Program-made: the position numbers and the translations under genes
Shown here: piece after piece, positions 6,807-54,790 of the stretch
How positions within the stretch are numbered: position 1 is the stretch's first letter
Layout: each line of letters opens with the position of its first letter
NCBI RefSeq assembly: GCF_013449375.1
Contig: NZ_JACDRR010000010.1
Span: 1-64,000, forward strand
Length of the DNA stretch: 64,000 nt
Origin: Pectobacterium sp. CFBP8739
Lineage (GTDB): Bacteria > Pseudomonadota > Gammaproteobacteria > Enterobacterales > Enterobacteriaceae
Direction of reading: 5' to 3'
Notes under the pieces: model-generated
The model's database searches: none
What the model was told of the DNA's origin: nothing
The model's input: only the letters and a program-made list of their open reading frames with translations

Positions 6807-6833
6807 AAAAAAAAGCACCGCAATTTGCGGTGC
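6807..6833 (-). terminator. GcvB rho-independent terminator
   Basis: Perfect inverted repeat GCACCGCAA/TTGCGGTGC (6815-6833) followed on the minus strand by eight T residues (6807-6814). It forms the 3' end and likely Hfq-binding tail of GcvB. Confidence 0.95.
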
Positions 6834-7005
6834 TACACAAAAAATCACTTTGGACAGACAGGGTAAATGTACAGGAAGTGAATAGGGTAGACTCGCTACC
6901 ACATCTGCAAAGGGCAGACAAACAAATAGCAAACACAACATCACAACCACAAGCCAAAAGCACCTCAGGTCACCCCTCCGCACTTTTCGTTCCGGCCCAG
7001 GAAGT
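6807..7005 (-). ncRNA. gcvB: GcvB small RNA
   Basis: GcvB is an Hfq-dependent sRNA that represses many amino-acid and peptide transporter mRNAs. Read on the minus strand, the RNA begins ACTTCCTGGGCCGGAACG, nearly identical to the E. coli 5' end. It contains the G/U-rich R1 seed region (complement of about 6921-6958) and the conserved block TTCACTTCCTGTACATTTAC. It ends in a perfect hairpin followed by eight U. Length is about 199 nt (E. coli about 206). The position divergent from gcvA, which activates it in E. coli, agrees. The segment between the first hairpin and R1 differs from E. coli. Confidence 0.96.
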
Positions 7006-9767: not shown

Positions 9768-9790
9768 AATAAGAGATATTGTGGATTTTG

Positions 9791-10082
9791 CTGTTATCCG
9801 GCGTAAAAAATTATGCTGAGGAGATAGTCGGCTTAGGATGAGCCGCACGGATGCGGCGAAAGCTTGCGCCAGGCTGGGAGCATGTCGCAAGCGGTCCGTT
9901 AAGCCAGATACCGACGAAGGTACCGCATAGCGGCATAATTTAGCCAGAAGCCTGAGGTCATGGGGCGAGCGGCGTGTGAGCCGCCCCATGTCGGGCGCAT
10001 GCTACTGGGGTAGCATGAAAAATGACGGTATTATTGCGCACGAGACCCTCTCCTAGTCTGCATAAAAAATGTGACTAAGAGG
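9791..10082 (+). repeat. Structured dispersed element, copy A
   Basis: A 292-bp noncoding stretch homologous to 54498-54790. Conserved blocks include GCGTAAAAAATTATGC, GCACGGATG, GCGGCATAATT and GCATAAAAA-TGTGACT. It folds into several hairpins: GCCGC/GCGGC (9842-9846 with 9853-9857), CTTGCG/CGCAAG (9863-9868 with 9886-9891), CATGGGGCG/CGCCCCATG (9959-9967 with 9982-9990), and a CATGCTAC/GTAGCATG hairpin near 10000. Relative to copy B the stems change by compensating substitutions, so structure is conserved. It fills the gap between convergent rlmM and xni. I do not recognise the family; a standalone HEARO/omega-type RNA or a non-autonomous mobile element are possibilities. Confidence 0.75.
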
Positions 10083-14432: not shown

Positions 14433-14540
14433 TTTTAGGGATAAAGATTGTTTTAAGAAGAAACATTATTTTAGGAATAAACATTGTTTTAGGAATAAAC
14501 ATTGTTTTAGGAATAAACATTGTTTTAGGACGAAACACTC
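14433..14540 (+). repeat. 18-bp tandem repeats within rsmB
   Basis: Six 18-bp units; units 3-5 (14469-14486, 14487-14504, 14505-14522) are identical copies of TTTTAGGAATAAACATTG. The other three differ at several positions, and one (14451-14468) has AAGA instead of AGGA. The same 18-nt phase of the GGA core continues upstream to 14383. Each unit can fold as a small GTTT/AAAC hairpin presenting the GGA in its loop. Confidence 0.9.
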
Positions 14541-14785
14541 GTTTCAGGAAGGAACACGGTTTCAGGATGAAATCAGGGACACCTCCAGGAAGGAGACCGA
14601 GAGCCGATTAGGAATATCGGTGGGGCAGGAGCCTAAAGGGATTGAGTCACGGAAGATACAGGATGGAAACGTCAGGAAGAAAGTAGGACGCCTGCAAGGA
14701 TTGTGGGTCAGGGAGACCAAAAAGGAAAAGTTTTCATGGATGAGCAGGGATGCAAATGTGTAGCGGGATAGCTATAAAACGAACC

Positions 14786-14819
14786 GGGGGTACTGAGCAA
14801 TCAGTACCCCCACTTTTTT
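14786..14819 (+). terminator. rsmB rho-independent terminator
   Basis: Perfect 11-bp stem GGGGGTACTGA/TCAGTACCCCC with GCAA loop (14786-14811), then ACTTTTTT. It defines the RsmB 3' end. Confidence 0.96.
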
Positions 14820-14944
14820 GCCTGTAGCATGGTGAACTCAGGCTGTCGCCGATAGCCTGTGGTCAACATGCGGCGATTGGGTCAGGCTGATATCAATGCT
14901 ATGCTTTGCCGCCATTACTGTTGGCTTCAAGGGCGAGAAACCGC

Positions 14945-21781: not shown

Positions 21782-22688
<907 letters not shown>

Positions 22689-54497: not shown

Positions 54498-54790
54498 CTG
54501 TTATCGGGCGTAAAAAATTATGCATCGGTGGGCGTGGCCGCCGAGTGAGCGGCACGGATGCCGCGAAAGCCAGTGCCGCGTCGGGAACGCGTCACTGGTG
54601 GCTCGATTAGCGGTCATGAACACCGATGGCACCGCTTTAGCGGCATAATTCCCGCCAAAAGCCTGGGGTCTCGGGGCGAGCGGCGTTTGAGCCGTCCCGA
54701 GTCGGGCGCGTGCGACGAAGTAGCATGAGAATAACGTTATTGTGGCGCACGAAACGGCCTCTGAGCCTGCATAAAAATGTGACTCAAAGG
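54498..54790 (+). repeat. Structured dispersed element, copy B
   Basis: A 293-bp noncoding element homologous to 9791-10082 in the same orientation relative to the upstream gene. Its stems are GCGGC/GCCGC (54549-54553 with 54560-54564), CCAGTG/CACTGG (54570-54575 with 54593-54598) enclosing CGCGT/ACGCG, and CTCGGGGCG/CGTCCCGAG (54670-54678 with 54693-54701). These occupy the same places as the stems of copy A, but with different base pairs. It lies in the 535-bp gap between mltB and the TauE-family gene. Confidence 0.75.

Follow-up and report, generated by a model that had tools for sequence, protein, structure and literature searches.

A stretch of 64,000 nucleotides from Pectobacterium sp. 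CFBP8739 (contig NZ_JACDRR010000010.1), here called the window, holds two copies, A and B, of an element that occurs many times in the genome, is located at the 3' ends of genes, carries GGA loops in two adjacent hairpins and varies in presence between species. The structure of the element is maintained by compensatory change. The explanation that we favour, with moderate confidence, is that it is a dispersed repeat whose folded RNA, about 250-300 nt long, is divergently related to the Rfam family TwoAYGGAY (RF01731), and whose copies form a store of binding sites for the global regulator RsmA (CsrA). This explanation fits the folds, which are kept, the loops of docking type, which are fixed, the position at gene 3' ends, which is open to read-through, and the spread of the element in copy number.

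In the proposed mechanism, read-through from the upstream gene would copy the element into RNA as part of the mRNA 3' end, and both hairpins of one element RNA would dock one RsmA dimer. The set of copies would act as a spread-out store of RsmA sites, competing with mRNA targets or marking the host mRNAs. The geometry of the RNA would probably be set by the outer helix together with domain II and the conserved 3' end (..CGAAA), parts that may also serve spreading. According to PMC4710047, the RsmA/rsmB system controls virulence factors in Pectobacterium atrosepticum. If the favoured explanation is true, this network would include a hidden, strain-variable component of some thirty docking sites of RsmA type, located at the 3' ends of mRNAs, and the orphan Rfam family TwoAYGGAY would gain a biology as a dispersed, probably mobile element that, in one genus, might mark defence cassettes of a new kind.

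Compensatory change in a multi-hairpin fold

Copy A occupies positions 9787..10081 of the + strand, as judged from an alignment of 30 copies from this genome and from its match to R1, a covariance model built from the alignment A2 described below. The core common to the two copies extends over 9800-10047 in copy A and over 54507..54756 in copy B (+ strand; alignment to copy A and R1 match). The R1 matches score 246.9 bits for copy A (9800-10047) and 256.0 bits for copy B, both copies being part of the training set. Downstream of the core, copy A has a 3' terminal hairpin (10048-10081, + strand), which was read by eye and ends at about 10081.

A previous reading of the window, made from the sequence only, had aligned 9791-10082 with 54498-54790 over the full length and had listed stem changes between the two copies. 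Re-alignment gave the same result, and the changes from GCCGC/GCGGC to GCGGC/GCCGC, from CTTGCG/CGCAAG to CCAGTG/CACTGG, and from CATGGGGCG/CGCCCCATG to CTCGGGGCG/CGTCCCGAG are present exactly as described. The loop ACGGAT is indeed identical in copies A and B; while its constancy had been noticed, no connection to CsrA/RsmA-type hexaloops had been drawn.

Pairs were drawn by hand (n = 65) in the helices P1, P0, H1, H2, H3, domain II, P3 and H4, all on the + strand. The first domain (9800..9945) is closed by P1, in which 9800-9803 pairs with 9943-9945 and 9809-9815 with 9934-9940 (92.6% and 98.9% of the cells paired). The helix P0 (9830..9905; GGCTTAGGA / TCC..TAAGCC), located around both GGA hairpins, is weak (76.2% paired), the alignment being uncertain and gapped there between two subtypes; in the other subtype GACCGC can pair with GCGGTC instead (by eye). 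Hairpin H1 (9842..9857), whose stem is 100% paired with swapped pairs, presents the loop ACGGAT at 9847-9852, closed by C-G, and hairpin H2 (9862..9892; 98.7% paired) presents GGA at 9877-9879. The small hairpin H3 (CCGC/GCGG) lies at 9923..9933 (99.0% paired). It is followed by the domain II hairpin (CATGGGGCG/CGCCCCATG, 9959..9990; 98.2% paired, one position showing as many as four pair types) and by P3 (9991..10043), in which TCGGGCGC at 9991-9998 pairs with GCGCACGA at 10036-10043 (100% paired, one non-standard position being excluded) and which contains hairpin H4 (9999-10016; 83.7% paired). In copy B, alignment to copy A places H1 at 54549-54564, with the loop ACGGAT at 54554-54559, and H2 at 54569-54599, with GGA at 54584-54586 (+ strand).

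Alignment A2 was made from the 30 copies after removal of one fragment and of four copies that carry an inserted hairpin, so that 25 remained. Standard pairs were found in 93.4% of its 1613 cells, which are not independent events, the copies being related and some domains common to several of them, as compared with 82.4% (standard deviation 0.4) in shuffles. Two-sided changes occur at 40 of the 65 pairs (21.4 in shuffles), and the covariation score is 0.340 (0.149 in shuffles). None of 500 shuffles reached the observed pairing, double changes or covariation score, in agreement with the previous claim that the stem changes compensate; further pair types are less distinctive, the observed value being reached by 9 of the 500 shuffles. 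When one side of the helices was shifted by 1-3 columns, pairing was only 26-48%. Single-sequence folding of copy A gave z = -3.62.

Copies, sites and relatives

BLAST of copy A against its own genome gave 35 matches, corresponding to 31 places after merging four split copies, and the genus-wide search added a further place (C62:119146). The 30 aligned copies are 28 fetched loci and the two in the window; the partial C3:249151 and C62:119146 were left out. The genome contains at least 30 copies, and a search of the genus with one old copy as query gave matches in all 25 genomes, with at least 11 to at least 39 pieces each. The sequence-only reading had suggested a search for further copies in Pectobacterium and related genomes by covariance model, and had seen in the element a structured RNA family or a non-autonomous mobile element; the copies found here and in 25/25 genomes bear out a structured RNA family that behaves as a dispersed, non-autonomous repeat. 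Its interpretation as a whole is partly supported.

R1 matches were present in 29 of 59 related genomes, namely 25/25 in the genus, 3/10 among other members of the family and 1/24 elsewhere in the order. Six genomes were searched a second time with R1, and G025 and G028, at first without a match, gave weak matches only (E 0.0016 and 0.04), the stretch matched in G025 being unlike the element. In G026, G027 and G033, R1 matches run across model positions 1-248 with up to 124.9 bits, and the GGA loops sit on unrelated stems, e.g. GGCA-CAGGGATG-TGCC and CCAA-CATGGATG-TTGG; at the location of P3, the pairs in other genera are formed by different letters (by eye). No blastn match to the element was found in plasmids and phages. 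In G026, elements and fragments are clustered (L155 1-1130, L154 3700-5260) together with short 3'-end repeats, a tandem repeat of the CAGACTTCCCG type adjoins the clusters, and in three cases (L156, L157, L158) a contig end is about 150 bases away from the copy.

The orientation of neighbouring genes was assigned by codon scores in flanks of up to 520 bp, after training on 20 genes of the window. Half of the 30 copies (15) lie between convergent genes and 15 in co-directional pairs, nine along the direction of the genes and six opposed to it, and none between divergent genes; the upstream gene is directed into the element in 24 of 30 cases, with weak flank scores upstream for L010, L013, L019, L026 and L030 and downstream for L014.

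Occupied and empty sites were also compared, as had been proposed. At the site of copy A the element is present in four of the 25 genomes, and in the remaining 21 the intergenic region is short and contains a different hairpin (by eye). The site of copy B was readable in 22 of the 25 genomes, the downstream gene not being found on the locus in three; the 3' signature was in the orientation of the window in 16, reversed in four and absent in two. Domains I and II occur there in varying combinations, and the domains of the element are indeed mosaic between copies (by eye). No exact insertion boundary was found, the whole intergenic region being different at site A, and mosaics and inverted occupants being present at site B.

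In several loci (L019, L020, L021 and L024, and L074, L075, L082 and L088 at site B), the H2 loop contains an insert rich in hairpins and about 80 nt long, which mostly reads ACAAAAACGTCAGAGACGTTTTTGAACAGC... Depending on the species, a given site has or lacks this insert, a repeat within a repeat.

GGA loops, TwoAYGGAY and competing explanations

The hexaloop bound by CsrA/RsmA is ANGGAN closed by C-G, and H1 of copy A, judged by its letters, is a hexaloop of this type. The loops were counted in the R1 matches (82 in 83 sources; 81 rows used, one short row being dropped), a non-random sample in which one site is represented by many copies and many genomes by their best match. In this sample, all but one of the 81 rows have A(N)GGA in the H1 loop (80 rows, 22 of them with a loop of 5 nt), and 79 have GGA in the H2 loop. 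Two positions of H1 vary, one separating A from GGA and one following GGA, and both are positions at which CsrA tolerates variation. Element copies, also in other genera, have GGA in hairpin loops and in pairs, a trait of CsrA/RsmA-sequestering RNAs. As stated in PMC4333381, GGA hairpins are generally paired because CsrA is a dimer, and TwoAYGGAY is proposed there as a CsrA-sequestering RNA.

One CsrA/RsmA gene was found in the genome. The known RsmA-sequestering RNA, rsmB/CsrB, lies in the window itself (14467..14821, + strand; Rfam RF00018, 248.6 bits), 4.4 kb from copy A, and was used as a yardstick. It contains 24 GGA, and its loop words, CATGGATG, CAGGGATG and CAGGATG, are partly identical to the loops of the element (motif count). 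Other known RNAs matched by Rfam in the window are GcvB (6807-7005, - strand) and t44 (21833-21936, + strand).

The relation to TwoAYGGAY, for which the Rfam gathering threshold is 43 bits, was examined in 11 sources, those of G039 included, containing 18 R1 places. Five of these places, in G026, G027 and G033, pass the threshold (43.5-55.8 bits) and four match below it. At the five above-threshold places (L153, L155, L161, L170, L171) the R1 match spans positions 1-248, and the Rfam match covers the two-hairpin core only, at model positions of about 43-119 of 168. TwoAYGGAY itself is a dispersed repeat: among 295 genomes from the order, 85 gave matches at E <=0.001, often at nine or more places per genome, with scores above the cut-off in 65, and 14 control genomes gave none; a deeper search of six many-copy genomes gave 10 to 30 each. 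In several families, TwoAYGGAY loci extend beyond the core according to a similar plan, a domain II hairpin being present and the 3' end often resembling CGAAA (by eye). Genome G139 contains arrays of three to four TwoAYGGAY in the same direction, spaced by about 430 to 610 bp (L214; C1:3660687-3662476). In listings of the open-licence literature, no description was found of the repeat, of TwoAYGGAY as a dispersed repeat, or of the defence cassettes discussed below.

Several observations weigh against an RsmA-binding relative of TwoAYGGAY. Copies A and B gave no TwoAYGGAY match at E <=5; two sibling copies, among the seven loci scanned in this genome, match below the threshold (34.2 and 31.5 bits); no match was obtained in the three genomes of the genus included in the order-wide search; and nine of the 18 R1 places, the commonest G026 type among them, have no match at E <=1. 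Because TwoAYGGAY matches in the genus of the window are below threshold or absent, the window copies are filed as probable divergent relatives of the family rather than as members. As for the loops, H2 in the genus is mostly a GGA pentaloop such as CGGGA, short of the full hexaloop; a hairpin of about 80 nt is inserted in the H2 loop in nine of 81 rows, seven of which keep GGA at the junction; and one copy of G027 has CATGAATG, without GGA. Nor is GGA uniquely conserved: of the 128 columns that R1 leaves unpaired, 32 show a constancy of at least 98%, so other parts of the element matter as much. Finally, no promoter or terminator consensus was found in the surroundings of copy A, and the store could be negligible beside rsmB if it is weakly transcribed.

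It is conceivable, although somewhat unlikely, that the element acts in the manner of REP/BIME sequences, its folded RNA protecting mRNA ends or terminating transcription between convergent genes without RsmA. The absence of copies between divergent genes (0/30), the 15 of 30 copies between convergent ones, and the different hairpin seen by eye at site A in genomes devoid of the element all fit this idea; on the other hand, a T-run of terminator type is absent at copy A, and the A(N)GGA and GGA loops found on changing stems in several genera would be left unexplained. RsmA binding is possibly compatible both with a structural function of the element at the ends of mRNAs and with a function of its DNA in spreading, and the REP/BIME-like explanation could hold together with the one we favour.

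We regard as unlikely that the element is selfish DNA, whose single-stranded or cruciform hairpins would serve a transposition or recombination enzyme with GGA as recognition letters. It would account for the many copies and for sites occupied or empty between genomes. In the six TwoAYGGAY-rich genomes, moreover, opposite-direction neighbours less than 10 kb apart are 14 (-,+) vs 1 (+,-), with 3' ends outward like transposon ends (p 0.001 in a sign test treating the pairs as independent); these neighbours come from four genomes, and in the remaining two all neighbours point in the same direction. In the genome of the window the corresponding numbers are 3 vs 0 below 10 kb, but 3 vs 3 below 15 kb. 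Furthermore, no direct-repeat signal of target duplication was found in the flanks of 20 copies, a CsrA-type loop is not obviously needed by a DNA enzyme, and no mobilising protein was found. A Y1/RAYT protein was considered as general mobiliser and rejected: the 175-aa Y1-like protein beside L216, which has no Pfam match of its own, is absent from the genome of the window and from 36 of the 85 TwoAYGGAY genomes. Used as a query, it was found in 101 of 295 genomes, in 49 of them together with TwoAYGGAY (odds ratio 4.1), and in no genome of the family of the window in this sample, the search being confined to this Y1 type.

A miniature inverted-repeat transposable element (MITE) of Tn5/IS50 type, with ends like CTGTCTCTTATACACA mobilising and the internal RNA as passenger, appears very unlikely. 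Some copies have a CTGTCTCTTATACACA-like 5' sequence (up to 14/16) and a ACTAAGAGACAG-like 3' sequence (up to 15/16), which we take to resemble the ends of Tn5; these arms, however, lie inside separate hairpins of their own (by eye), many copies lack such ends, and the core outlives them. Terminal inverted repeats accompanied by a 9-bp target duplication were looked for, and no 9-bp duplication was found. The guess of the sequence-only reading, a HEARO/omega RNA of an IS200/IS605 element, is almost certainly wrong. Size and absence of an open reading frame (ORF) are all that speaks for it, whereas HEARO (RF02033) was not matched at the gathering threshold in the window, nor at E <=5 in the seven loci or in copies A and B, and relatives gave TwoAYGGAY matches instead. 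In the ORF lists around copies in other genera and in the genome of the window, from which ORFs were read without a profile search, nothing was read as tnpB.

Inverted TwoAYGGAY pairs and comparison with known systems

A wider proposal, which we put forward tentatively and consider rather doubtful, is that TwoAYGGAY and its divergent relatives make up one gamma-proteobacterial superfamily of CsrA-docking mobile RNAs, and that the outward pairs of a Psychromonas-like genus, g22, are the ends of defence cassettes. If this is true, each new copy would add a regulator-binding site, and each of the Psychromonas-like cassettes, which are small, would transport one anti-phage defence system between core genes. 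The genus was termed Psychromonas-like because a 37-base exact string from g22 elements was found, among the named genomes of the collection, only in Psychromonas sp. MB-3u-54.

The sample consisted of the (-,+) pairs of g22 with at least 1 kb between them, twelve intervals in total: five from stretches with close copies chosen before protein inspection, five from G170 and two from the order-wide listing. Shorter gaps (<1 kb; L205 and one in G170) were excluded. When the 23 proteins of the main reading frames were scanned with PADLOC profiles, matches were obtained in eight of the 12 intervals bracketed by inverted pairs with 3' ends outward, many PADLOC names being candidate systems and the sample being small and from one genus. 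Most of the profile was covered in L203 (KAP-type NTPase, PDC-S49), L204 (NsnA-like with a GmrSD_N domain), L216 (PDC-M11A and B, with an RTasSLATT match), L230 (PDC-M01A and B/PtuA) and L231 (AbiH and Shedu); the matches were partial in L211 and L212 (PDC-S31) and in L229 (Ppl-like), and none was obtained in L228, L232, L269 and L270. The L203 and L204 cassettes adjoin the ribosomal protein genes rplI and rpsB (named by eye).

Seven control proteins from same-direction intervals gave no PADLOC match, and two of six housekeeping proteins from the genome of the window, apparently ordinary RNA-methyltransferase and RelA-type proteins, gave partial matches. Because housekeeping proteins also match, PADLOC matches alone are unspecific. 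Nine stretches near copies in the genome of the window were read as housekeeping, with no defence genes (ORF lists, by eye). Among 23 rplI loci of the Psychromonas-like genus, the element pattern was found downstream in two (the stretch covered being 1.5 kb for most, and 82 and 485 bases for two), and exchange at one site is unsupported. In L210, a gene beside a single TwoAYGGAY copy matches PDC-S20.

A further element was noticed at site B in four other species, and it, too, contains a pair of adjacent GGA hairpins (GCGCCATGGATGGCGC and GTACAGGGACGTAT, for example). It matches the Rfam family Ysr224 (RF02770) on the opposite strand at L081 2289-2386, L095 2289-2386, L085 2281-2387 and L086 2345-2462, with 74.8 to 100.6 bits in three loci and 51.3 bits in L086 (gathering threshold 70). 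Because the GGA hairpins lie opposite the strand matched by Rfam, the Rfam strand may be wrong, or both strands may matter. While it resembles our element in its two adjacent GGA hairpins, the Ysr224-type element differs from copies A and B in sequence and fold.

REP/BIME and ERIC-type sequences, which we take to be dispersed, intergenic, palindromic and located at gene 3' ends, are similar to the element in these traits; the element differs in its length of about 300 nt, its multiple helices and long-range pairs, and in that the Y1-type protein tested is not encoded in the genome. Sequestering RNAs of the CsrB/RsmB type are single genes with many sites each. The element shares with CsrB/RsmB and RsmX/Y/Z the GGA hairpin loops, some words being identical, but has two GGA hairpins per copy, many copies and an elaborate conserved fold, and no promoter was found at it (copy A). 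TwoAYGGAY, typed as cis-regulatory by Rfam and placed in clan CL00106, which includes CsrB, has the same two adjacent GGA-loop hairpins within a closing helix; the plan of the element continues past the matched two-hairpin stretch with H3, domain II and P3.
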